From Anaerolineae bacterium (GTDB lineage Bacteria; Chloroflexota; Anaerolineae; Anaerolineales; Anaerolineaceae), in NCBI GenBank assembly GCA_013314735.1, contig JABUFD010000001.1, positions 1,116,001 through 1,180,000 on the forward strand: a stretch of DNA of 64,000 nucleotides, written 5' to 3'. The notes below the pieces were generated by a model. That model did not search any database, was not told the origin of the DNA, and was given only the letters and a program-made list of their open reading frames with translations. Shown in pieces: positions 18,374 to 37,914 of the stretch. Both the position numbers and the translations under genes were made by a program. The stretch's first letter is position 1, and every line of letters starts with the position of its first letter.

Positions 18374-18413
18374 CTAAATGAACACCCAACTGGGTGAGCG
18401 CTATACCACCATC

Positions 18414-18576
18414 ATCGGGAAGAGACTGTACCCGCAGCACCGAAGGGGCAAATCGAATGGTTTCGATGAATCTCTCAGGTAAAAGGACCCGGTAATGTGC
18501 AGACTCTGGAAAGTCTTTATGACACCGTCGGGGCAAACCGGTTCACCGGTGAATCTCTCAGGTCAATAACAGAGGG
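18414..18576 (+). promoter_or_regulatory. Tandem glycine riboswitch (two aptamers)
   Basis: Two consecutive glycine aptamers. Aptamer I (18414-18493) contains GCACCGAAGGGGCAAA and ATCTCTCAGGTAAAAGGAC closed by a TCGGG/CCCGG P1. Aptamer II (18502-18576) contains ACACCGTCGGGGCAAACC and AATCTCTCAGGTCAATAAC closed by CTCTG (18504-18508) / CAGAG (18570-18574). These are the hallmark conserved blocks of the gcvT-type RNA. It stands directly in front of gcvH-gcvPA-gcvPB, so it most likely switches glycine catabolism on when glycine is abundant. Aptamer II is slightly degenerate in its last conserved block. Confidence 0.95.
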
Positions 18577-24677: not shown

Positions 24678-24707
24678 TGTTACTTGTGGCAAGCATGCCA
24701 CAAGTAA
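24678..24707 (-). promoter_or_regulatory. Perfect stem-loop at the 5' end of the alaS leader
   Basis: Thirteen-base-pair perfect inverted repeat (GTTACTTGTGGCA / TGCCACAAGTAAC) with a four-base loop. It starts right after the putative alaS -10, so it would form the very 5' end of the alaS mRNA. It is followed on the minus strand by ATTTGATTTGTT and could equally be the terminator of the upstream peptidase operon. Confidence 0.6.
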
Positions 24708-24710
24708 CCA

Positions 24711-24775: not shown

Positions 24776-27070
24776 CTACCTGGAAACAGCCAATTTGATC
24801 ACTCTGCCATCAGTGTTAACAGTTACCTTTGCAAAGTACCGGTGCTTTTCATCAAGGTGTATAGTTTCTTTTTGAAAACTCATCACAACATTACCGGATT
24901 CATGACGTTGGAGTTTTTCAGGAGCACCCATCCGGAATTTCGAATGCACTCCTTCAGAGTCAATAACAAACTGTTGATATAAATCATAATCTGATTCCAC
25001 CAGACCAGGGAGATACGCACTCAATACTTGTTTGACTTCGGCAATGGTTTTGTCAGAAATCCGCAAGGGTTCATGTGCGGTGATATCGGTTTCAGAAAAT
25101 ATGATAATCTGGTCAGAAATTTTTTCCCGCTCAATTTTGCTGATCTTCCCACCAGTTTCCCCCTTGACTCTGGCAAGTGGATCACCATACAACACGAACG
25201 ATAAGAGGGTTTTCTGATCTTCTCCATCGAGAAAATTCTGTCTTTTCTGCATTTCCTGGGCAAGCTCAACTTTTGCACGCATCAGCGCATCGCCTTGTGC
25301 GTAACCTTCCTGCAGGCGTTTCCAAAACAGAAAGGCGAGTAGGTCAGCGCCAATTAATGGCGGTTGAATGGAACCATAGGCAATCGCTGTCGAACCTATA
25401 AATCCTTTGCACCCGGATGTTATGTATCGTAAAGCAATGGACTGATCTGCATTCTTCGATTCAATATACCCACCATAACAAGCTTCACTGAATATGATCT
25501 GCCGGTACCGAGGAGTGGGTGATATATCAGTTGGTTGAAGCGCAACTGGGTAATCCGGTCCATCAGAGGCATCAACGAAATCTTTTTGCCCAAACCATTC
25601 TGCCCCGTCCTCGATTCCGTGTAAATTGAAGTAAGCAAATTCTGTTTCTGACAACCACAATTTGTCTAGTTTCGGAGAAGTTATAGGAGGCGAAGCAATG
25701 ACGAAATTCGCTGATCCGATTGGCCGGTAAGCAGCAATCGAAGACCTTCTCCATATTGCAGCACTATACCCAATCGAATTTTTGGCTTGAGTTTCCGGTT
25801 TACCGCCAAAAAGGGCGGTGAAAAATTCTACTAAAACCTCTATTGAAAATGAAAATGGCAGGACTGACTTCTTTTCTGCGGATTTTGGTGTTGCATGGTC
25901 GCGGATCGCCCCTCGTAACTGTAGCAGCAGCAATCCAGGATCGTTGGTATTTTCGTCCGGCATTCTCCCCACTGGCCATTCTGGAATGTAGTAGTTTTCA
26001 TCGATGCTGCCATACGGATTATCTGACAAAATCGCAGTATCGTTGTCATCTGTCGGATTGGGCAATTGATGAAATGGCACAATATCATTCCCCCCAACGA
26101 TTAATAGTGCACCGATCATCGAGCCCTTTTTTGCTAGCTGCTGGTCGAGGTCATTGAGCGCTAACTTTATTTGCCACGGGTCTTTTGGATTTTTCAGTTC
26201 CAGTCCCAATTCCCTCATTCCTTCCTTATCATCCGGGGTGAAGACCATTGCTGACCAGCCAGGTGCCTGGCTTATTGTCGATACCAGGTTTTTCATGACG
26301 CCAAAAATGATGCCAGCGCTTTCAGGTCCATATTTGTGTTCCAGCGCACCACGACAAGTAACAATCACATATACAGGAAACCGACCATCAACCATTCTCG
26401 GGCTTTTCTTTCCCAAAGACGTTGATACTTTTTCAAAAATGGAAATCACTTCGTCATTATTACTGACGGGAGAGGTGTAACCTTGTTGATTGATGGGTCG
26501 AGGTAATTCCAAAGATGCCTCAAAATTTGTGAGATCATCTCCGATATCAGAATTTGCTTCGTCCACAACCGTGCCCGATGTCAATTGATTTATCCCGAGA
26601 CGAGTGAGCAGCGGGGTTGGAACCTTGACTCCCAAACTGGCAGAGAGTTCATCTTCCATGGGCCATAAATGTCGATAGGCATGATTTGCTCCCCATAACC
26701 GTTTCGTACTCAACCCGGCCAGATCATGTTTTACGCATTCCTGAAGCAACTCGATCCCAAGAATTTCATCGCCCTTTTTTATCGCATAATCGGCCAGTAT
26801 CAGCTTAAACTGCAGCGTATTAGGCCAACGATCATGATATAGACGCGCAAGCACCAGAACGGCGTCATCCGGTTGGAATTTCATCGCATACAACAAATGA
26901 AACAAATCTACCAATACGCTTTCCCCGGAAAACTGCAGCAAATTGGGTAGCGCTTCATCCAATGCGGGTTCATTTACTGCTTCCAATGCATCCATAAAGG
27001 TGTGTGCTACAGGTGCCCATAATGGTAAAGCTTCTTCGCCAATGGGTGCCCCCCCAGCGCCAATATACAA
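24776..27070 (-). CDS. Gingipain-like (peptidase C25 type) cysteine peptidase, frameshifted C-terminal part
   Basis: 764 codons from a TTG at 27070. Residues ~25-150 are helical, like TPR repeats. Residues ~230-635 match the C25 layout: ALLIVGGNDIVPFHQLP, the NPYGSIDENYYIPEWPVGRMP block, catalytic His484 in YFNLHG, catalytic Cys531 in FSEACYGG, GFIGSTAIAYG, and the closing LLSFVLYGDPLARV. A short beta domain follows (~650-764). There is no signal peptide. The frame has a stop just before the TTG and no ribosome site, so it is almost certainly reached from the overlapping upstream frame (27007-27366) by a -1 shift at the seven-G run (27049-27055), giving a protein of about 863 residues. Last gene of the sigma-54 operon. 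Confidence 0.8.
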   Translation of the reverse strand: MYIGAGGAPIGEEALPLWAPVAHTFMDALEAVNEPALDEALPNLLQFSGESVLVDLFHLLYAMKFQPDDAVLVLARLYHDRWPNTLQFKLILADYAIKKGDEILGIELLQECVKHDLAGLSTKRLWGANHAYRHLWPMEDELSASLGVKVPTPLLTRLGINQLTSGTVVDEANSDIGDDLTNFEASLELPRPINQQGYTSPVSNNDEVISIFEKVSTSLGKKSPRMVDGRFPVYVIVTCRGALEHKYGPESAGIIFGVMKNLVSTISQAPGWSAMVFTPDDKEGMRELGLELKNPKDPWQIKLALNDLDQQLAKKGSMIGALLIVGGNDIVPFHQLPNPTDDNDTAILSDNPYGSIDENYYIPEWPVGRMPDENTNDPGLLLLQLRGAIRDHATPKSAEKKSVLPFSFSIEVLVEFFTALFGGKPETQAKNSIGYSAAIWRRSSIAAYRPIGSANFVIASPPITSPKLDKLWLSETEFAYFNLHGIEDGAEWFGQKDFVDASDGPDYPVALQPTDISPTPRYRQIIFSEACYGGYIESKNADQSIALRYITSGCKGFIGSTAIAYGSIQPPLIGADLLAFLFWKRLQEGYAQGDALMRAKVELAQEMQKRQNFLDGEDQKTLLSFVLYGDPLARVKGETGGKISKIEREKISDQIIIFSETDITAHEPLRISDKTIAEVKQVLSAYLPGLVESDYDLYQQFVIDSEGVHSKFRMGAPEKLQRHESGNVVMSFQKETIHLDEKHRYFAKVTVNTDGRVIKLAVSR

Positions 27071-27366
27071 CCGTTGATGAATGGGTTATTTTTGTCCATT
27101 TGCTGGTAAGTTAGGTATGCTGGCAGGAAAAATGGTTCCAATTCAACCAATTTTTCCAGGTGACGCCTGGCCAGTTTGTTTTTTCCCAATGCAAAACTCA
27201 AGCACCCATTGAAGAGATGGGTTTGCAAATCACCTGGAAATATTTGTAACCATTCACCGATCGCTGATCCCATATACTCGTATTCCTGCTCAGCCAATGC
27301 CGCAGCCATGAGTTGTAGAAATTGGCGATGATTGAGATGTAATCTTGGGAGTGTTCCGTCATCCAT
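27007..27366 (-). CDS. N-terminal TPR-like segment of the gingipain-like peptidase (short frame product)
   Basis: 119 codons. It begins six bases after the stop of the giant TPR gene, with AGAAGG nine bases before the ATG. It contains TPR-like helices (FPGDLQTHLFNGCLSFALGK, then LARRHLEKLVELEPFFLPAY). It ends in the wrong frame after CTG GGG GGG (codons 104-106). A -1 slip on this G run would continue into the 764-codon frame without loss of homology-like helical pattern. Taken as written it is a truncated protein of unknown function; more likely it is the N terminus of one TPR-peptidase. Confidence 0.65.
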   Translation of the reverse strand: MDDGTLPRLHLNHRQFLQLMAAALAEQEYEYMGSAIGEWLQIFPGDLQTHLFNGCLSFALGKNKLARRHLEKLVELEPFFLPAYLTYQQMDKNNPFINGCILALGGHPLAKKLYHYGHL

Positions 27367-27372
27367 GGTACT

Positions 27373-30300
27373 TTACCTTCTCGCTTCATGTGAATTATGA
27401 ACAAAATTTAATGCCATCACAGCCCCCAACTGGTTACGAATATCATCATTCATGGGCTGTAGTTTCAATGCCTTGGTAAACATTACTTCGGCATCTTTAT
27501 ACTTTTTGGCTTCTCGTAAAATCAAGGCCGACTCATAATACAAACGATAATCATCATCCACCTGTTGGATACCCTGATGGAATACTTCCAGCGCTTTATG
27601 AGGTTCACGCCGCAAGATATGGACTTTGGCCAGTTGCAGGTAAAGGTCAACTCGATTCTTCTGCAGTTTCAATGCTTCCGCAAAGTGGTAAATGGCTTGA
27701 TCCAACTGCCCGTTGTCACGATATAGACTCCCAGCCAGTTCATGGTATTCTGCCACCTGCCCGTCTTCACGCAATGCCTGCCGGATGCAACTTAACGCAT
27801 CGCTCTTATGATTGTTCTTAGCGGCTTCGATCGCTTTCATATACAACAATTGAGGATGATGGTTGTGTTGAGCTGAAGCGTTTTCCAGTTGCCGCAGATA
27901 TTCGTCTTCTCCTGAAAGTTCTCGCACCAGTTGCAAATGTTCTGCGATAATGTCCGAGTTGGCGGTGGAATCAATCTGCCGAAGCAGTGTTACTGCGTCA
28001 CTGGTATGTCCTTCTTCTTTCAGGATTTTCGCCAGCCATACCAGCGTCAATGGATTTTTCGGATTAAATTCATAAGCGGTTTTCGCATACTTCAATGCTG
28101 AATCATACTCTTTGCGGGAAAAAGAAATGGCTGCTCCAGCCAAAATGGCATTTAGGGAGTTTTCATCCTCACAAATGACTCCAGATAAATGAGCAAGAGC
28201 GTCATTTTCATTCCCAGCTTTGTGATGCGCCAATACGTACAAGGACTCAATACGATTTCGATACACTTCCTTGGCGAAATCACCAGCTTTGTCTAACAAA
28301 TCCAATCCCTTCAACCATTGTCCTGTTTCCAAGTAAACAGAGACCAATCCCAGGCTTATCCCAACATCACCAGGCTGATGTTGGTTCAACAATTCAAGAT
28401 GAACCATCGCTGACGTAAACTCACCAGCATTCCTGGCTGCGTTCGCGGCCCACTCCCGCCAATACCATTCTTCAGGCCAGGCAGACAATGCCGCCTCAAT
28501 GGAATGTAAAGTCCCATGATAATCGCCCATCGATTCAGACAACATGGCATATATAACTCGTGATATCGGATCACCTGGGCTGATCCCAAGCGCTCGTTTT
28601 GCATACGTTAGCCCCTGTTCTGGATCATGTTCTTGTAAAGATAAGGCCATTTGCATTAAGTGCCTTTTATCTTCTACATCCACCCAATGCGCAATTTCCT
28701 GTAAGCGAACACCTGCCCGGGAATGTCGCAGCAATAACAGTGATGTTTCTGCATCTGCGCCACTAACCGAAGTAAAAAAGGCATCCACCGAGTCAATTTC
28801 TGAACCTTCATACAACTGCATCAACGCGTGAAGTCGCTTGATTATGGCAGAATCCGGATCAATGGTGTTTGTGTCGAGTAAAGAGGTGGTAAATTGATGG
28901 AGGGCAACAAAGTCAACTTGCTGGGAAGGCAGGTGAGTAAGTATCCCAATATCATGAAAATAGACCTCATAATGATACAACCGTGTTACCAACCGCACCA
29001 GTTCCCTTACCGCATATTCTTCATTCTTGTGGTCCGCAAAATACTTCTGCAATCCGATCCAGGCATCATGAAAATGCCCCAATTCAATTGCGCCATCCAT
29101 AAACCACAAATCATCTGATTCCAACAGGGCAAACACCGAATAAAAGCCCAGGTCACTATTGAAGCTCATCTCAATTGGTTGAAGAACTGTTGCACATTCC
29201 TGGTACTTTTTCTGAGCGGAATGCCATTCTCCCTGTTGTTTGAGCATTTTTGCCTGAATCATCAATCCACGAGCAACAATTGATAATTCACTGTTGAATT
29301 TCCCTTTTACTTTTTCCCAAACGATACGCTTTTCACCCTGGTACAGGCTATCAATATACATCAGGGAAACCAGGCGGCGGAAATACTTTTCCACCGGAAC
29401 CGCTGGAGTTGTTGGAATATTCATTACTCCTGTTTCGAACCAGATTTTGAAAATCCGGGGGAGTTGCGAGAGGCGTTTCTCATCATTGGCAATTTTCATC
29501 AACATCAAGGTATAATACCTCGCGACTGGATTGTCCTGGGCAAAAGCCAATGCCTTTTCGGCACAGGTAACTGCCTCACGATATTCGCCCAACAATCGCT
29601 GAACCAACGCCAGGCGCAGAAACACTCCTGCAGGGCATTGATGGAAGTAGATTTCCTCACGTGTTAGTGGGAAGGAAACGTTTGGCAACTTGGTTTTGCT
29701 GACATCCTGCGTCTGCCAAATGCCGGGTTGCTCAATAATGCCCAGCAAAATCTCCTTCGCTTTTGCAATTTGGTTGGAATAGATGAACGCATCTGCTGCC
29801 AGAACTTGTGCAAATAACGGAAACTCAGAGTTGGTTTGCTTTTCCATCACCATGCTTGCCGACCCAAATTCCTGGCGAAGCATCTCAACCCGGTAGATTT
29901 CGAGTGCGACCTCAAACCCGGCTTTCGAACCTGGGTCTTCCGCACATAAGTTTAATAGCCTTAAGGCCATATCATATTGTTTTTGAATCTCATAATAATG
30001 CGAGAGTTTCCGAAGATCATCAGTTGTTAACTGTTGCGAACCCGCCAGCTTTTCCATGTGCCCCTGCATTTCCGCAGTGTCCCCTGCTTCAGATGCGAAC
30101 TCTAGCGCTTTAAACCGGTAGAACTCATGGTCAGGATCGGTCGCGATAAAATCAACCAGCTTCTTTCTTGCTAAAGTTGACTCACCACAACTTTTTAGAA
30201 AACCGAAATACCACTCAAGATGCGTCCTGTCACCATCGGCCAGTTCACATACCTGGTCAGCAATGACCAACGCCTGTGGTTCCAGTTGCGCCATCCAGGT

Positions 30301-32844
30301 TGCTTCTGCTAACCACATAAGAATATGAATCTCCTCCGGGTTGGTGGATCGGGCTGATTGGAAAGCGGCCATTGCCTGGTTCACTTGCGCCTGCCTGAGG
30401 GCAAGCAAACCAAGCCCCGCTTGAATTTGCCATTTGTACAGGGGCAGATTGGATTCATAAAATTTCGACAAATTCCGGAAGGCTGCCTCGGCAGATGCCG
30501 TTTCACCAGACAGGACCATAAGTTGTGCTTTCGTCAGCAGCAAGAGAAAGTCATCTGGCGAATGTGACATACCCAAATCAACAACTTTCATCAGGAGAGA
30601 GTGGATCTCACCCATTTGATCTACTGTCGTGAACAGCAAATTTCCAAACATCCCATTGACGGTATCGATGAGACAATGGATCTTTTCAAGATCATAATCA
30701 CCATTGGTGATGGCAAGAGTCAAGAAAGGAATGGCTTCATCAAACCGGTGTGAATATGACAGTAATCGCGCTTTATAAAACAAAACTTCCGGTGACACTT
30801 CCCAAAAATCGCCATACCTTTGAAGTAATGACTCAATCTCGGCAATGTTATTCGTTTCCCAAAGCACTCTAATCAAAGATTGTGCTGCCTCTATGCTTTC
30901 AGGAGCCATCTCAATCGCCTGGCGGAGAAGGCTGATACTTTCTGCTTGTTGTCCTGAACGATACAGATAGGTACCAAGTGCTGTCAATAAGTGATGATCA
31001 TCAGGTTGATACGAAATCGCTTTCTGGAGAAGCCCCTCAATCCGGTCATGGTCACCTAATTTTTCATACAATTCAGCCATACCCAACCAGGCATCTGTAG
31101 AATTTGATGCTGTCTCCAACGCTTTGTTGAAATGTTCGGCAGCTTTATCGTATGAACCCAATTGTAGTGATGCCAGTCCTGCTGCTGTATGGGCATCCGC
31201 ATCATTGGGGTATATCTCCAGGATTTTTAAACTTGCTTCGAGCATCACAGCATACTCACCGCATTGACCTGCGCTTTTGGCCATAAATAGCCAGTCATCA
31301 CGATCAAATACTGTTTGCCGTGCGAGTAAATCACGGTATTGCATCATTGCATCATCCCACCGTTTTTCACTGGCGGCAATTTTCCCCAAATTTCGATGTA
31401 ATACGGGATTTTCAGGATTCAACACAAGCAGCCAGTTCCCAAACAACTTCGCAGTGTCATAATCCCCAAATGCATAAGCGGAGTCAGCAAGAAGGATCAG
31501 ACTGCGGGAGGAATGGATACCCATCTCTGGCAATAGCATCCCAATTTTGTTGGCAAGGGAGTGATGTTTACCTGTTTTGATAATTTTTTCCAACACCCTG
31601 AAGACCAGATCCTCAAGATCAATATAGGTGTGGTACTGAATTTTTTGCCCATTCACACCTTCTGCATCGATGTAACCCTCGATTTCCTCCAAAGTTAACC
31701 CGGTGTCTGTCATGCCGGGATCATCCAGGACGAGATCGATTTTTTTTATCCAACTCATGACATTCTTTTTTGCAGCAGGGAACTGTGTAAGCATCTGGGT
31801 GTATTCATCCAGTGTCGAACTGGTCAGAATCGCATCCCATTGAAATAATTCCGATTGTGCATTGCTAGCAATTGCCTCCAGATCACCGATACCTCCCGAA
31901 CGGGTGCTGCCTTCTCTCTTTGCATATCGGATTTCGAATTGTATTCCTGCAGAAATTCGCGCCAACATTTGTTGGGTATCAGTAAAACAACGAATTGCTT
32001 TTTGGGATTGATCACGATACAGCAGACTCTTCGCATTTTGGTGCTGGGTTAACGCAAAATTCATCAATTGCTCGAATGGAATTTCATCATTGACTGTACC
32101 CAAAACACTGGTTACATTCGTGATATCGGGAAGCACTTTACGAGCCAGGCTTCGCACCAATGTTCTTGCTTGTTGGCGATGAAGCTCAGACAATACCGGT
32201 TGAATGACATCCAATGGCAAACCATTGAATAACTTCAGGAATCGGCTTTCATGTGCAGTTTCAGCAACAGGCTGGCACAACATTGCATGGCAGATTAAAC
32301 TGATCGCTTCTCGAGTTGGGAGGTTACGCAGAACAGATTGATAAACAGTTGTCTCATTGGTCAGAACGCTGTCCAGGATGGCGAAAACCAACTGCCAGAT
32401 CTTGGCAAATTCACCATGATCAGAGTTGATTGTCCGAAGCGATAAAAAGGAAAGAAATTGAAAGTTCTTCTCTTTTTCAAATTGGTAACGAATCAGGTAA
32501 GCAATTTTTACAGCTGTCGGTATATTGTGCTGTTTTAGCGATGAAGAAATACTTCCGGAGAGTGCCTCAAATGAATGTGACAATTCCTTGAATTTCTGGC
32601 AAATGTCCTCTGATTGCTCCAGATCAGGATATTCCTCCCTTAGTACCGCAAAAACCCCCAATTTTGCGGGTGTCCATACCTGCAATGACCGCCCAAAACT
32701 TTGTTCGTAGAGGGTATATATGTTCGATGAAATCAACCACTGCCAGAGCTGTTTTTCACGACTGAGTGCTCCAAACAAAATTTTTCCATCATTGGGTTCA
32801 AATTTTTCGTGAATAAACCGTAAGAACTGTTCTGATGATTTCAT
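27373..32844 (-). CDS. Giant tetratricopeptide-repeat protein
   Basis: 1823 residues. No signal peptide or clear membrane helix. From about residue 430 to the end it is an almost continuous array of TPR units, with repeated 34-residue helical pairs such as DAHTAAGLASLQLGSYDKAAEH, in places interrupted by longer helical linkers (~1060-1260). The first ~400 residues are helical and not recognised. It is likely a large scaffold for protein contacts. The start ATG at 32844 follows GAGG at five bases; the longer frame (to 32913) reaches into the upstream gene and lacks a site. It sits between a small membrane protein and the TPR-peptidase in one sigma-54-driven operon. Confidence 0.8.
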   Translation of the reverse strand: MKSSEQFLRFIHEKFEPNDGKILFGALSREKQLWQWLISSNIYTLYEQSFGRSLQVWTPAKLGVFAVLREEYPDLEQSEDICQKFKELSHSFEALSGSISSSLKQHNIPTAVKIAYLIRYQFEKEKNFQFLSFLSLRTINSDHGEFAKIWQLVFAILDSVLTNETTVYQSVLRNLPTREAISLICHAMLCQPVAETAHESRFLKLFNGLPLDVIQPVLSELHRQQARTLVRSLARKVLPDITNVTSVLGTVNDEIPFEQLMNFALTQHQNAKSLLYRDQSQKAIRCFTDTQQMLARISAGIQFEIRYAKREGSTRSGGIGDLEAIASNAQSELFQWDAILTSSTLDEYTQMLTQFPAAKKNVMSWIKKIDLVLDDPGMTDTGLTLEEIEGYIDAEGVNGQKIQYHTYIDLEDLVFRVLEKIIKTGKHHSLANKIGMLLPEMGIHSSRSLILLADSAYAFGDYDTAKLFGNWLLVLNPENPVLHRNLGKIAASEKRWDDAMMQYRDLLARQTVFDRDDWLFMAKSAGQCGEYAVMLEASLKILEIYPNDADAHTAAGLASLQLGSYDKAAEHFNKALETASNSTDAWLGMAELYEKLGDHDRIEGLLQKAISYQPDDHHLLTALGTYLYRSGQQAESISLLRQAIEMAPESIEAAQSLIRVLWETNNIAEIESLLQRYGDFWEVSPEVLFYKARLLSYSHRFDEAIPFLTLAITNGDYDLEKIHCLIDTVNGMFGNLLFTTVDQMGEIHSLLMKVVDLGMSHSPDDFLLLLTKAQLMVLSGETASAEAAFRNLSKFYESNLPLYKWQIQAGLGLLALRQAQVNQAMAAFQSARSTNPEEIHILMWLAEATWMAQLEPQALVIADQVCELADGDRTHLEWYFGFLKSCGESTLARKKLVDFIATDPDHEFYRFKALEFASEAGDTAEMQGHMEKLAGSQQLTTDDLRKLSHYYEIQKQYDMALRLLNLCAEDPGSKAGFEVALEIYRVEMLRQEFGSASMVMEKQTNSEFPLFAQVLAADAFIYSNQIAKAKEILLGIIEQPGIWQTQDVSKTKLPNVSFPLTREEIYFHQCPAGVFLRLALVQRLLGEYREAVTCAEKALAFAQDNPVARYYTLMLMKIANDEKRLSQLPRIFKIWFETGVMNIPTTPAVPVEKYFRRLVSLMYIDSLYQGEKRIVWEKVKGKFNSELSIVARGLMIQAKMLKQQGEWHSAQKKYQECATVLQPIEMSFNSDLGFYSVFALLESDDLWFMDGAIELGHFHDAWIGLQKYFADHKNEEYAVRELVRLVTRLYHYEVYFHDIGILTHLPSQQVDFVALHQFTTSLLDTNTIDPDSAIIKRLHALMQLYEGSEIDSVDAFFTSVSGADAETSLLLLRHSRAGVRLQEIAHWVDVEDKRHLMQMALSLQEHDPEQGLTYAKRALGISPGDPISRVIYAMLSESMGDYHGTLHSIEAALSAWPEEWYWREWAANAARNAGEFTSAMVHLELLNQHQPGDVGISLGLVSVYLETGQWLKGLDLLDKAGDFAKEVYRNRIESLYVLAHHKAGNENDALAHLSGVICEDENSLNAILAGAAISFSRKEYDSALKYAKTAYEFNPKNPLTLVWLAKILKEEGHTSDAVTLLRQIDSTANSDIIAEHLQLVRELSGEDEYLRQLENASAQHNHHPQLLYMKAIEAAKNNHKSDALSCIRQALREDGQVAEYHELAGSLYRDNGQLDQAIYHFAEALKLQKNRVDLYLQLAKVHILRREPHKALEVFHQGIQQVDDDYRLYYESALILREAKKYKDAEVMFTKALKLQPMNDDIRNQLGAVMALNFVHNSHEARR

Positions 32845-32867
32845 CATAACCTCATGCTGCCGCTTGA

Positions 32868-33188
32868 TCACATGTTCATGAATAGAAATGCCGCACCGAT
32901 CAACATCAGGCAACCGATCAAGATCAGAAAAATGCCAATACCAGAAGCTGTTTTCACCATCTGGTTTAGTGAATCGATCAAAATAGATGCGTTTCCTACC
33001 AGGCCTGAAAGATCATCTGTTATACCTTTTTCTCCCAATTTTGCAGTTTGCTCTGCGATTGTCGTGATCTCATGACTGAATGTTTTGCGAATTAAGACAA
33101 AAATTCCACCCGCAACACTGATTACACCCAGTCCGACAATAACAAGGGCAAACAGGGTGAGAAGCTCGTTTGGCTCTAGTGGCAGCAT
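32868..33188 (-). CDS. Small membrane protein with two transmembrane helices
   Basis: 106 residues. Helix ~10-33, then a polar amphipathic helical segment (~35-75), then a hydrophobic helix ~83-105. No recognised family. AGGAGG lies five bases before the ATG. First gene of the operon carrying the giant TPR protein and the gingipain-like peptidase, about 31 bases after the predicted sigma-54 start site. It may serve as a membrane anchor for the TPR scaffold; this is inference from order only. Confidence 0.7.
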   Translation of the reverse strand: MLPLEPNELLTLFALVIVGLGVISVAGGIFVLIRKTFSHEITTIAEQTAKLGEKGITDDLSGLVGNASILIDSLNQMVKTASGIGIFLILIGCLMLIGAAFLFMNM

Positions 33189-33228
33189 TGGGACCTCCTG
33201 TCATCCATATGGATATCTTTGAGGTTTG

Positions 33229-33246
33229 ATGCAATATCTATGCCAA
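33229..33246 (-). promoter_or_regulatory. Sigma-54 (-24/-12) promoter of the membrane protein-TPR-peptidase operon
   Basis: Minus-strand TTGGCATAGATATTGCAT: GG (-24) and GC (-12) are separated by exactly ten bases, with TGGCA and TTGCA blocks matching the consensus. Transcription would start near 33219, leaving a ~31-base leader before the ATG. It shares ATATTGCATCA with the promoter in front of rpoN. The cognate sigma factor and activator are encoded directly upstream. Confidence 0.85.
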
Positions 33247-33272
33247 ACCAATCCTTCCCCGTTCTGGGTTAA

Positions 33273-34445
33273 TCAGATGCTTTGGATGATCTCGTGAGGA
33301 AGATGAACCAGATCGATCACCTCATCATCGCAGAATAACAACGCCCGTTCAATAGCATTCTTTAATTCACGGATATTGCCCGGCCAATGATAATTCTGTA
33401 ACGCCGCCAAAGCGTTTTCGGAAACCTGCTCAACGTTCATTCCCATCTGCAGATTTTTCTCATGCAGGAAGAAACTGACCAACTCAGGGATATCTTCTTT
33501 TCGTTCACGCAGCGGCGGAATGGTTAAGTCAACCACATGCAAACGATAATATAAATCCTCCCGGAATTCACCATTTTCAATCAACCGCAAGACATTTTTA
33601 TTAGATGCAGCCAGAACCTGAACATCAACCGGAATTTGTTTTCCTCCGCCAACGCGGCGTATCGTCCGGTCTTCCAACGCTCTGAGTAATTTGGATTGCA
33701 TATCCATCGACATCGAGGAGATTTCGTCGAGGAACAAAATTCCACTGTCTGCCAATTCCATCAGTCCCAACTTCCGTTTCTCAGCGCCAGTAAACGCACC
33801 GGCCTCATATCCGAATAACTCTGATTCGATCATTGTAGGTTGTATTGATGCACTGTTGATGGGCATAAATGGCTTGCTCGCTCTTGGCCCTGAATCATGA
33901 ATAAATTTGGCTACAATTTCTTTTCCAGTGCCGGTTTCGCCTGTGATTAAAACTGACACACTGGCCAATGCTGCCCGTTTCGCCTTTTCAAGGACATCAC
34001 GCATTTTGGGCGATTTGCCCACAACAAAGTTAAAACGCTGACCCTGGTTGTGGCGAAAATGTTCCAGTTCACGGCGCATGGAAATAATTTCCGAGGCACG
34101 CATTAATGATTTTTCCAACCGTTCCAGATTTACCGGCTTTGTAAGAAAATCATGGGCACCAGCTTTCATCGCGGTAACGGCCATATCTATATCCCCGAAA
34201 CCAGTGATCATAATAACAAGTGGACGGGCGGGATTGATGGCAATTTCATCCATCAGGTCAGGACCATACCCGTCAGGCAATTGCACGTCCAGGAGAATGA
34301 CTTCGCCAACTCCCTTTCTTAAAAATGCCCGGGCTTCTGTCAAGCTGGAAGCTTGAACCACCTCATAACCCACATTGGTTAACAAATCACAGATGTTTAA
34401 ACGAAAATTTTCTTCATCATCGACGATCAATACGGTCAGGCTCAT
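33273..34445 (-). CDS. Sigma-54 response regulator (NtrC type) lacking a DNA-binding domain
   Basis: 390 residues. Receiver domain 1-120 with Asp9/Asp10 and phospho-acceptor Asp53 (LLDVQLPDG). AAA+ domain ~140-375 with Walker A GETGTGKE (169-176), GAFTGA loop (216-221) and Walker B ILFLDE (236-241). It ends 30 residues after the sensor II region, with no Fis-type helix-turn-helix; only 84 bases separate it from the next gene, so the domain is not simply frameshifted. It should hydrolyse ATP to open sigma-54 complexes, probably from solution without an enhancer. It overlaps the kinase gene by 29 bases, implying a coupled cognate pair. Confidence 0.92.
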   Translation of the reverse strand: MSLTVLIVDDEENFRLNICDLLTNVGYEVVQASSLTEARAFLRKGVGEVILLDVQLPDGYGPDLMDEIAINPARPLVIMITGFGDIDMAVTAMKAGAHDFLTKPVNLERLEKSLMRASEIISMRRELEHFRHNQGQRFNFVVGKSPKMRDVLEKAKRAALASVSVLITGETGTGKEIVAKFIHDSGPRASKPFMPINSASIQPTMIESELFGYEAGAFTGAEKRKLGLMELADSGILFLDEISSMSMDMQSKLLRALEDRTIRRVGGGKQIPVDVQVLAASNKNVLRLIENGEFREDLYYRLHVVDLTIPPLRERKEDIPELVSFFLHEKNLQMGMNVEQVSENALAALQNYHWPGNIRELKNAIERALLFCDDEVIDLVHLPHEIIQSI

Positions 34446-36405
34446 CTTCCTCTAACTCCCGAATCGGTAATAAAATGTGAAATACAGTCCCTCCAGGGAA
34501 GGATTCGACGGTAATGGTTCCCCTGTGTGCTGTCACAATCTGTTTGCTGATTGACAATCCCAACCCTGTACCTTCCCCTTTGGTTGTCATAAATGGGTCA
34601 AATACTCTCTCGCGCAATTCCGGCGGTATCCCGGCGCCATTATCTGAAATGCTGATCCGGATTTGTTGCTTTTGTAATGGCGAGGTTTCCTCTCTGGATA
34701 TCCTTACCCCAAGAACGGGGTTGTGAATATTTTCTGACATGGCTTCGACAGCGTTTGATATCAGGTTAATGAAAACGCGTTCCATCGCCCTCCGATCCAC
34801 TCTGATGGAAGGGATCTTCGTAGCGGATGAATAATGTAATTGAATACCCTGTGTTTCCAGGGTTGGCTTCCACTTGCTGAGAATCCGCTGCAGCACCTGT
34901 TCTATATCGACCACTTCAAACCTCGTATTGTCTACGAGCCGTGAATAAGATAGGAATTGCTCCATCAATTGCGTCAATCTATCACAATCTTCTCCAAGCC
35001 TGTTAACAATTTCCCTGTTCGGATCATCTGCGCCAAAACGGCGCTGGAGCAACTGGAGTGAGGTTGATAGATTGTTAATTGGATTCCTGACATCATGGGC
35101 AAAAGCAGAGATGAATTCACCCAATATTGCTCGATGTTCCAGTTGCTGGGTTCGCAAAGTGATTTGCTCATACTCACTGATGTCTGTAATGATCAAAATT
35201 ACCTGTGTTACTTTTCCCAGTTCATTGACTGGCAATACTTGAACACGGGCCGAGAACGGATACCCCACCCGATGATGTAATTGAACTGTTCCCAAATTGT
35301 GTGCAGCGATTCCTGCCTGTGCGTCATTCAGCGCAGTCAGTAAAAGCGCGGAACCGATCAAGATATCTTCTGCCGGCAGGCTTGACACTTCCTGAGCTGT
35401 GTACCCTAACATAATTTCTGCTGCCGTGTTTATCTCCTGAACATGTAAGTCCGGGGTCAATAAGATCAGTCCATCTTTCAGGTTAGATATCACATTCTCG
35501 TGCACTTTGATGGAGGAATGTAGCCTGGCAATTTCCTTGTGCAGGGACTCAATCCTGACAAAATGCAATACCAGTGAATTGAGATTGATCCGGGTCAACT
35601 CAAGTAGCTTTTCGGCATCACCCGGCGGTTGATTTGTTTCATCGCCAATTAAAACGAGCCCAATCACCCCGGATGCCACACCGAGGGGTATCGATAATAA
35701 AAATTGTAGATGCATCCTGAACGACGGCCGCTCGGAGCTGATAAGACCTTCCTGATTATTGCGCCACATGAGCGGTTTTGACAGCATCATCATATCGGAT
35801 GCGGGTAATGTGCGAGGCAATATCTTCGCATGGTCAAATGCCACATATCGATTCATCAAAGGCGACTTGTCATCCAACAGATAAAAAGCAATGGCATTCG
35901 CCCGAAACAAGGCTCGCAAAATTGGAATGGCTTTTCCCATCGCAATCTCGAGTGATTGCTCTTCAATCAGGAACAAAAGGTTACGAATTGCATCAAACCG
36001 CCTTTGGGTACTGAGAGGTGCCCCCTCCTCTTCCTGCGGGTGAATAAGGAGCAAAACTGCATCCGTCTCTTGTTGAAGCTGTTTCACAGCTATCTGGCTG
36101 GAGAACGAATGGCCTGACCTGGTTAACAGTTGCTCCTGGCTGGAACCCTGGGCAAGCAAATTGGTGATGATCAAGTTGGGAAACAGCAAACTGATATGGT
36201 GGCCTACCAGCTGCTCCTTACTGTATTGCACCAGGTCACAAAAAACCTGATTGACCATAATCACCAGTCCATATTTGCTATCCAATAAAACAGAGGGCGC
36301 ATCCTGTTGACCACTATCTAAGAGGTTGGGATTTTGATCTGATCCGGTGTCATCAGTCAGTTTTTTAATTTTGCGACGGCTGGAATTGGGCGTTGCTGTT
36401 TCCAT
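34417..36405 (-). CDS. PAS/GAF sensor histidine kinase (NtrB/AtoS-like)
   Basis: 662 residues, no membrane helices. PAS (~35-110), GAF-like (~135-290), second PAS (~305-420), HisKA with phospho-acceptor His437 (FAHDVRNPINN), and HATPase with the G1 box DNGAGI and the G2 box GTGLGLSISKQ. It is a complete cytoplasmic kinase. It overlaps rpoN by 41 bases and the response regulator by 29 bases, so rpoN, kinase and regulator form one translationally coupled operon. It is likely to phosphorylate the adjacent NtrC-type regulator. The signal sensed by the PAS/GAF domains is unknown. Confidence 0.9.
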   Translation of the reverse strand: METATPNSSRRKIKKLTDDTGSDQNPNLLDSGQQDAPSVLLDSKYGLVIMVNQVFCDLVQYSKEQLVGHHISLLFPNLIITNLLAQGSSQEQLLTRSGHSFSSQIAVKQLQQETDAVLLLIHPQEEEGAPLSTQRRFDAIRNLLFLIEEQSLEIAMGKAIPILRALFRANAIAFYLLDDKSPLMNRYVAFDHAKILPRTLPASDMMMLSKPLMWRNNQEGLISSERPSFRMHLQFLLSIPLGVASGVIGLVLIGDETNQPPGDAEKLLELTRINLNSLVLHFVRIESLHKEIARLHSSIKVHENVISNLKDGLILLTPDLHVQEINTAAEIMLGYTAQEVSSLPAEDILIGSALLLTALNDAQAGIAAHNLGTVQLHHRVGYPFSARVQVLPVNELGKVTQVILIITDISEYEQITLRTQQLEHRAILGEFISAFAHDVRNPINNLSTSLQLLQRRFGADDPNREIVNRLGEDCDRLTQLMEQFLSYSRLVDNTRFEVVDIEQVLQRILSKWKPTLETQGIQLHYSSATKIPSIRVDRRAMERVFINLISNAVEAMSENIHNPVLGVRISREETSPLQKQQIRISISDNGAGIPPELRERVFDPFMTTKGEGTGLGLSISKQIVTAHRGTITVESFPGGTVFHILLPIRELEEDEPDRIDRR

Positions 36406-37831
36406 GGTATTTACGACTGGCTTTCCTTAGATGTGCTGGAAGGATTCCTTCCATCGACCTGTATTTGGCAACGGTTCGCCTGGCAACAGAATACCCAAAT
36501 TTTTCTAATTCTTTCACCAACATGCTGTCGCTGAGTGGTTTTTCTTCATGGTCTACCAATTCTTTCAAAACAGTCCTGACATTCAAATTACGGCTGAAAA
36601 ACGAGGACAAAGGGATAATCCTGCCATTTGGTAATTGAGCTGTTTTGTTTGCTACAGCACGCGAAATAGTTGACTCATGCACTTCTAACAATTCAGCAAC
36701 ACTTGCCCGGGTAATAGGTTTCAGGTATTTATCACCATGTAAAATAAAATCATCCTGATTCTTTGCCAGGAATTGCATCAATCGAAGCATGGTGAACGCC
36801 CGTTGCTGTAAACATTTTACCAGTAAAGATGCACGGTCATGATCCTTTTGCCACTCCTCTTTTTGTTCTTCGGGCGCATTGTTCATGGCTTCTTTAAATT
36901 GCCGGTTCAAGAAAGGACGATACACGTAAGGCATCATCACTTCCACTGCCAATCCAGCATCAGGATCATCATTCAGAAAATGGAAAATGACATCAGGATG
37001 GTGGTAGACATTCACATTCGCAGACACAGGCTGGCGACTCGATCCATAATGACTATGCGCAGGAAAAGGATTCAGATTATTCCCGATAAAGCGAATAACC
37101 TCCTGCAAATCTTCATCGTCCATGTCGAACCGTTCACACAAATCTGCTATTCGCCGCTGAAAAAGGAATTCCATGCCATCAGCAAGAACGAGATTCACCA
37201 GAGGGGGTATTTCCATCACATCAGCCAGCATTTCCAATTGAATGCGCATTGCCTCTGTACTGTTAACACTAGCAACGCCCAGGGGTTCACATCGTTGCAG
37301 CAAGGATTTGACCCGTTCCACCGCAGTAACAGGTACGTGGAAATACCGGCTGATTTCGAACAAAGAAATGGTTAAGAACCCATTCTCGTCCAGGTTGTTA
37401 GCCAGATGTTCAGCGATCTGATGCTCAACTCCATTGAGATCACCGCTGACTTGTTTTAATAAATAGGTCGCTAGATTTTCCTCTTGAACACGGAAATCGT
37501 CCTCGAAATCTTCATCACCATCCTGCTGGATGCGACTGCCAGATCGATCGTGGTACAAATCTCGCATTGGAGAAAGAAACACCACCGGCTCCCCATCTGC
37601 CTCCTGCTTGCGCTGTGAACATACAGGGCAAATTTCTGCCGGCCTTAAGATACGATGACAGTTCGGGCAACGCCGCTCGCTTTCCAATTCTAATGCGGGG
37701 TTCGCCGCCAATTCTGATTCCAGATGCTGCAGCAATTCCTCTGAATTCATATTCAGCAAGGTCATCGTCTGCGCCAGGTGGGCTGTTGCTTGTGGTCCAA
37801 TCGATGTTACCGTATAATGTCCCTGAAGCAC
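36365..37831 (-). CDS. rpoN: RNA polymerase sigma-54 factor, with zinc-ribbon-like insert
   Basis: 488 residues. The activator-interacting region I is at ~1-50 (diverged but recognisable, LLNMNSEELLQHLESELA). It is followed by CPNC...CPVC (Cys55, Cys58, Cys68, Cys71), a zinc-ribbon-like motif unusual for sigma-54. Then come an acidic region II, the core-binding region (~110-330), a helix-turn-helix (VAELLEVHESTISRAVANK) and the RpoN box ARRTVAKYR at 450-458. It directs RNA polymerase to -24/-12 promoters. The start is GTG at 37831 with AGGGAG seven bases upstream. A perfect -24/-12 site lies upstream of its own gene. Confidence 0.95.
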   Translation of the reverse strand: MLQGHYTVTSIGPQATAHLAQTMTLLNMNSEELLQHLESELAANPALELESERRCPNCHRILRPAEICPVCSQRKQEADGEPVVFLSPMRDLYHDRSGSRIQQDGDEDFEDDFRVQEENLATYLLKQVSGDLNGVEHQIAEHLANNLDENGFLTISLFEISRYFHVPVTAVERVKSLLQRCEPLGVASVNSTEAMRIQLEMLADVMEIPPLVNLVLADGMEFLFQRRIADLCERFDMDDEDLQEVIRFIGNNLNPFPAHSHYGSSRQPVSANVNVYHHPDVIFHFLNDDPDAGLAVEVMMPYVYRPFLNRQFKEAMNNAPEEQKEEWQKDHDRASLLVKCLQQRAFTMLRLMQFLAKNQDDFILHGDKYLKPITRASVAELLEVHESTISRAVANKTAQLPNGRIIPLSSFFSRNLNVRTVLKELVDHEEKPLSDSMLVKELEKFGYSVARRTVAKYRSMEGILPAHLRKASRKYHGNSNAQFQPSQN

Positions 37832-37898: not shown

Positions 37899-37914
37899 TG
37901 CAATATTCGTGCCA
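37899..37914 (-). promoter_or_regulatory. Sigma-54 (-24/-12) promoter of the rpoN-kinase-regulator operon
   Basis: Minus-strand TGGCACGAATATTGCA, a full match to TGGCACG-N4-TTGCA, with GG and GC ten bases apart. Transcription would start near 37888, with a leader of about 57 bases before the GTG of rpoN. This implies positive autoregulation. Confidence 0.88.

Follow-up and report, generated by a model that had tools for sequence, protein, structure and literature searches.

The operon that encodes a small membrane protein, a TPR-repeat protein and a C25-type peptidase in this Anaerolineae bacterium is very probably placed under the sigma factor encoded next door, through a −24/−12 promoter on the minus strand at 33246-33229 of the window, by which we mean the whole 64,000-nt stretch analyzed. 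That a sigma-54 promoter ties this operon to the neighboring sigma-54 system is a strong prediction, based on the sequence of the site (33229..33246, minus), on a matrix built from relatives and on its conservation. The minus strand reads TTGGCATAGATATTGCAT, in which the GG (33244-33243) and the GC (33232-33231) are separated by 10 nt and lie inside TGGCA and TTGC blocks, as the first-pass annotation had stated in claiming GG-N10-GC spacing and both conserved blocks. Its claim that the promoter lies 41 bases before the first ATG is equally correct, the end of the motif being followed by 41 nt and then by the ATG at 33188 of a 106-aa ORF (hereafter memb), with AGGAGG directly before this ATG. 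From the usual distance of ~12 nt after the GC, transcription would be expected to start near 33219. An exact TGGCAN6TTGCW core occurs twice in the 64-kb window, at the memb site and at 37914-37899 (minus) before rpoN, and the 11-mer ATATTGCATCA is common to the memb promoter and the rpoN upstream region, which bears out the shared stretch noticed earlier. The promoter itself is an ordinary −24/−12 promoter: like canonical ones, it has TGGCA and TTGCA blocks in GG-N10-GC arrangement before a ribosome-binding site. Compared with the canonical consensus, which a passage of PMC12316311 quotes as TGGCACN5-7TTGCT, 59 sites from the order differ in their preference for C before TTGCA and for C at +17, and in having GGTA for GGCA in eight cases, all of them rpoN promoters.

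The genes on both sides of this site form a compact module on the minus strand. The rpoN gene (36365..37831), whose product displays the Pfam AID, CBD and DBD domains and the RpoN box ARRTVAKYR, stands with an NtrB-like PAS histidine kinase (34417..36405; Pfam HisKA, HATPase_c and PAS, in a conserved gene order), which we infer from its gene position to be the cognate sensor, and with a sigma-54 activator (33273..34445) recognized by Pfam and motifs as a receiver, an AAA+ domain with GAFTGA and a lid. The first gene of the downstream operon, memb (32868..33188), encodes a membrane-anchored helical hairpin with two hydrophobic segments; its AlphaFold model, computed from a five-row alignment, consists of two long helices with a mean pLDDT of 73.5, and the protein is predicted to be two long helices with hydrophobic outer ends. 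It is followed by a large protein matching Pfam TPR families (27373..32913), with a likely start at an ATG near 32847, and by the peptidase gene, present as an N-terminal piece (27007..27366), recognized as an ORF that is part of a single ORF in relatives, and a catalytic piece (24776..27070). Two overlapping frames split the gene at 27007-27070 (minus), with a G-run in the overlap, and assembly error, decay and slippage cannot be told apart as its cause; each of the other 16 loci in alignment A3 has a single ORF of 837-947 aa. A terminator-like hairpin with a 13-pair stem (24679..24708, minus) lies after the peptidase gene and before alaS, one such hairpin being found versus a mean of 0.3 in shuffles. 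Elsewhere in the window, a glycine riboswitch at 18407-18500 (plus) precedes glycine cleavage genes.

The catalytic piece, a predicted protease, matches Pfam Peptidase_C25 (clan CD) with 47.9 bits versus a cut-off of 23, and its dyad, a His in NLHG and a Cys in EACYGG, is invariant in 17 of 17 aligned sequences. It thus resembles the gingipain-type C25 peptidases in its family match and its His/Cys dyad, and differs from them in its TPR-like N-terminal part, in the lack of a hydrophobic segment in the N-terminal piece, and in its operon, shared with TPR and membrane-hairpin proteins. The AlphaFold model of the C25 part is poor (mean pLDDT 42.8), and in a profile search of solved structures the best 60 of 64 matches all fall on the TPR-like part, at profile positions up to 220.

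The rpoN-kinase-activator-memb order is kept in 19 of 20 relatives; in the exception, G057, memb has moved away and no site lies behind the activator. The TPR and C25 genes then follow in 16 of these 19, are cut off in G002 and G007, and are reduced in G017 to C25 directly behind memb, the TPR gene being absent. Four named records have the same order, namely L065 and L067 (MAGs of Pelolinea sp., a member of the Anaerolineales, class Anaerolineae), L068 (a Chloroflexi MAG) and L069 (an Anaerolineaceae MAG), all with C25 cut by the end of the locus; L066 ends inside the activator. Loci from other orders (L297, L300, L302 and L303) have a small gene that separates activator and memb within the sigma-54 operon, and in G120 (L300) this gene encodes a stand-alone receiver domain.

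We scored the sites with a 31-column matrix built from 59 sites of relatives (36 before memb and 23 before rpoN), the window's own genome being left out. Its core columns are inflated because the sites had been selected by GG and GC and by no more than one (memb) or two (rpoN) core mismatches. The spacer and flank columns, which were not used for selection, are biased toward Y at +5, R at +6, W at +8 and +9, and C at +10 and +17 (the T of TGG being 0), with 1.00 and 0.91 bits in the unselected columns +5 and +6. The memb site (33230-33245) reaches 26.8 bits and ranks first of ~128,000 positions on both strands of the window, the rpoN site (37899-37914) comes second with 21.6 bits, and the third position has only 8.7. 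In 300 dinucleotide shuffles of the window, 26.8 bits was never reached and 21.58 bits was reached by five. Matrices made of rpoN sites only or of memb sites only return the same two top ranks, the second rank of the rpoN-only matrix (13.9) being barely above its third (13.2).

Scanning of the genome (95.5% complete) was done with two patterns, the matches then being scored with the matrix. A strict pattern gave 57 matches versus seven for the reversed control, and 46 of the 55 outside the window fall inside an ORF call; a consensus-shaped pattern gave 12 versus two, with a best score outside the window of 19.6 bits. With these two patterns, the best match outside the window comes from the strict one and has 21.3 bits, versus 26.8 at the memb site. 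Since shuffles contain ~0.3 positions per Mb at 20 bits or more, lone genome sites of 19-21 bits mean little unless they are conserved.

Conservation is what the memb site displays. Of the 38 memb loci of the window's order that could be tested, 36 have a site with no more than one mismatch; on one strand, the background for such sites is ~0.02 per 200 nt, with the true sites counted in. For memb beside the activator, the first set of 19 relatives and the four named records has 21 such sites in 23 loci; none was found before memb in G017, where memb begins ~10 nt behind the activator, and G043 is untestable, with a run of 100 N between the two genes. Five further linked loci have the site (G050, G058, G009, G052 and G053), and that of G001 is cut by a contig edge. 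Where the memb operon is found away from the activator (G037, G038, G042, G044, G046, G048, G049, G051 and G055-G057), a site of its own precedes the memb match by 32-81 nt in 10 of 11. In the remaining one, G049, memb lies behind an ftsZ gene, and an exact site stands 74 nt before the ftsZ ORF, inside a questionable overlapping ORF call. Thirteen memb loci of the 49 relatives with memb were left out of the site count, and among the matches listed at least four of the left-out genomes (G003, G006, G023 and G032) have a pattern site no more than 50 nt before memb. Outside the order but within the class, 8 of 12 loci (three from one genus) reach 15 bits or more at a site before memb or before the small gene preceding it, the weak memb match of G065 being left out; no site was found before memb in G112, G120 and G093, nor within 164 nt in G233. 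Full-length RpoN is 37-51% identical among the compared genomes. The persistence of the site across such divergent genomes, and in operons away from the activator, supports the earlier claim that the TPR-peptidase genes are tied to the adjacent sigma-54 system.

The −24/−12 promoter of the rpoN-kinase-activator genes (37899..37914, minus), an exact TGGCAN6TTGCA, is conserved as well. A site with zero to two mismatches was found in 23 of 24 loci (20 relatives and the four named records) within the stretch from 120 nt upstream to 70 nt downstream of the first possible start codon, the remaining locus, G043, having only 58 nt upstream before a contig edge. Judged by these sites, rpoN is probably autoregulated. 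All 27 RpoN proteins examined, one of them from a Chloroflexia record (L071), have the RpoN box and a C-x2-C...C-x2-C motif after region I. This zinc-ribbon-like motif, at 37619-37669 (minus) in the window, is absent from a Cyclobacteriaceae RpoN (L070).

The activator of the window ends after the AAA+ lid, with no helix-turn-helix domain. HTH_8 was found in none of 25 aligned activators (window, 20 relatives and four named records), and it is present in 10 of 11 homologs from other orders (three from one genus), G237 being the one that lacks it. Consequently, comparison of the sequences points to a probable loss of a DNA-binding domain within the lineage to which the window's order belongs. 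Among the four proteins of the window's genome that match PF00158, GAFTGA is confined to the module activator; the rest, at 26-29 bits, resemble Clp and MoxR ATPases when judged by eye. In 10 of 61 genomes PF00158 is matched more than once at E 1e-20, although the two matches in G040 may be parts of a single gene lying at the ends of contigs. Activators with a signal-receiving part and an AAA+ domain and no DNA-binding domain are known, CtcC of Chlamydia and FlgR of Helicobacter being described as such in parts of PMC3162934 and PMC7482065, likewise in genomes with few activators. The window activator differs from both in being encoded beside rpoN, in the class Anaerolineae, and in that its other-order homologs keep a Fis-type HTH (10 of 11), which allows the loss to be assigned to a single gene lineage.

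The components of the module also tend to occur together. Among 61 genomes, the window's own included, RpoN was found in 51, memb in 50, PF00158 (E 1e-20) in 52 and C25 (E 1e-15) in 52. RpoN and memb are both present in 47 and both missing in seven, with four having RpoN only (G010, G024, G035 and G040) and three memb only (G001, G009 and G023; p=7e-5). In a class-wide set of 200 genomes that are at least 90% complete, memb was found in 16 and RpoN over the cut-off in 22: 14 have both, eight RpoN only, two memb only and 176 neither (p=3e-14). Both p-values are indicative only, because related genomes are not independent. This co-occurrence of RpoN, activator, memb and C25, and the presence of a single GAFTGA activator in the genome, lend further support to the tie with sigma-54.

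In related bacteria of the class, the sigma-54 wiring appears from the sequences to extend to a second copy of ftsZ. One of the stronger remaining genome sites (G000:C9:892393, 19.6 bits) is found where a 429-aa gene, g429, begins; this gene is followed by an FtsZ paralog (ftsZ2) with Tubulin GTPase and FtsZ_C domains; g429 itself has no Pfam family, its best weak match, at E 0.063, lying below the family cut-off. Using a matrix of memb and rpoN sites only, and requiring a site of at least 14 bits with both GG and GC, no farther than 130 nt from where g429 could first start, we examined 50 loci of relatives, three of them untestable, and found sites before g429-ftsZ2 in 41 of 47 testable genomes versus 2 of 80 control windows at other ORF starts of the same loci. 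The six misses are G046, G050, G052, G059, G018 and G056. In the first four, g429 lies 17-117 nt behind C25, so that a promoter of its own may be needless, and G040 and G053, in which g429 is also within 60 nt of C25, have yet kept the site. The ftsZ2 site of G018 has TTGT instead of TTGC, and hence GT for GC; this genome, in which neither RpoN nor activator, memb or C25 was detected, has kept the g429-ftsZ2 pair (L230). Counting against this extension of the wiring, intact ftsZ2 sites are present in G029 and G036 (88% and 75% complete), though no RpoN was found there.

In 10 of 12 loci from other orders, g429 and/or ftsZ follow C25 within ~0.55 kb (the ftsZ match of G093 being weak), and the remaining two loci end inside C25. 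At least two FtsZ matches, some of which are gene pieces, occur in 49 of 51 RpoN genomes; the seven genomes lacking both RpoN and memb divide into four with one FtsZ match and three with two. A recurrent site at the 3′ end of g429, before ftsZ2, was not counted, as by eye it lies inside conserved coding sequence. Sites of 12-25 bits were also seen inside g429, ~770-810 nt after its start, in six genomes (L244, L247, L248, L251, L252 and L253), and may be either an internal promoter or a coding coincidence.

Other candidate targets are fewer. The sites at a GH25 muramidase gene score 21.3 bits in the window's own genome and 23.8 in the congener G001. As a best score of at least 14 bits is found in only 5 of 30 GH25 loci (G000, G001, G006, G017 and G026), we rejected GH25 as a general member of the regulon and claim it for some genomes only. 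Of 40 pattern sites picked in seven relatives, already explained sites being left out, 18 lie outside ORFs of at least 100 aa, and the genes behind the picked sites include, by eye, lipoprotein-like ones and a membrane-protein family in G004, G012 and G027. Three uncharacterized families, also grouped by eye, recur behind sigma-54-like sites of different genomes (L262/L287/L293, L264/L273 and L265/L269/L143). Whole-genome site density gives no sign of a large regulon: 21-bit pattern matches number 1.98 per Mb in 51 genomes with RpoN versus 2.12 in ten without, and 1.77 per Mb in six of these ten that lack RpoN, memb and C25, or 2.04 if G036 (75% complete) is included as a seventh. As a test of regulon size, genome-wide density is thus not in favor, and probably too blunt.

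As a whole, the data are best explained by a working sigma-54 promoter, a reading in which we have high confidence, within a kinase-activator-RpoN scheme that would serve one envelope/cell-division programme. The possibility that the site is a chance match in A+T-rich intergenic DNA can be given almost no credence. The core pattern with up to two mismatches is indeed common, with 179 matches in the window versus 153 expected, but both exact matches lie upstream of genes of one module, no shuffle attains the score of the memb site, and the persistence of the site in divergent genomes, also where the activator gene lies elsewhere, in the main refutes this idea. It is less far-fetched, if still improbable, that the promoter is real but minor and that the memb operon owes its transcription mainly to read-through starting at the rpoN promoter. 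Only 27 nt separate the stop codon of the activator from the site, and since no terminator was found between this stop and the memb site, some read-through of the rpoN operon into memb is likely too; the closely spaced memb of G017, with no site found, points the same way. Against read-through as the main source stand the 10 of 11 operons away from the activator that have their own site. Sigma-54 control would hold even then, because the source of the read-through is itself a −24/−12 promoter.

Nor do we consider it at all likely that the motif is bound by a factor other than RpoN, or that an overlapping sigma-70 promoter matters more. Nothing speaks for this directly, apart from the sites persisting in G029 and G036; against it, GG-N10-GC with TTGCA is a sigma-54 signature, no sigma-70-like site was found on the minus strand at 33100-33420, RpoN and memb co-occur, and it is in G018, with no RpoN found, that the ftsZ2 site has lost its GC. 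Very little probability also attaches to the promoter being driven by an activator other than the neighboring one. Ten of the 61 genomes would offer a second PF00158 candidate, but the other three matches in the window's genome, Clp/MoxR-like by eye, have no GAFTGA, and the gene order of the module is conserved.

In the preferred reading, a working sigma-54 promoter fired by the neighboring activator, a signal sensed by the PAS kinase would lead to phosphorylation of the activator's receiver, and the AAA+ ring, with no DNA-binding domain attached, would work from solution on RpoN-polymerase poised at −24/−12 sites. It would fire the rpoN promoter, feeding back on rpoN, kinase and activator, which would rise together with the targets; it would also fire the memb-TPR-C25 promoter, the g429-ftsZ2 operon and, in some genomes, the GH25 muramidase gene, a target set best read as a single envelope/cell-division programme. 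Sigma-54 dependence, activation from solution, rpoN feedback and the physiological role are what we infer from the sites, genes and domains described above.

Sigma-54 and its activators have been noted in some Chloroflexi, according to a portion of PMC3162934, and the predicted targets (membrane protein, lipoprotein-like genes and, in some genomes, GH25) fit the view of sigma-54 as controller of the cell exterior put forward in that portion. To this published theme, as there set out, are added here a clan CD peptidase with its TPR protein and a second FtsZ. Among the papers listed from the open-licence literature searched, none describes in its title or abstract beginning this sigma-54 module, a regulon that joins a single activator devoid of a DNA-binding domain to a second FtsZ and a peptidase-TPR-membrane operon.

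Within one gene lineage and the same gene order, some sigma-54 activators have a DNA-binding domain and others lack it, which makes the loss of DNA binding testable by comparison, and a poorly studied bacterial class gains a concrete, conserved and testable sigma-54 regulon, in which a second FtsZ and a caspase-type peptidase would come under one switch. More tentatively, and with more doubt than conviction, we suggest that sigma-54 in the Anaerolineae is a self-amplifying switch for one division or differentiation programme, in which the kinase, together with an activator whose DNA-binding domain has been lost in this order, would fire all sigma-54 promoters at once, to yield a caspase-like peptidase, its TPR partner, a membrane hairpin and a second FtsZ, joined in some species by a muramidase. 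If true, such a switch could serve the cutting of filaments or the building of a specialized septum.
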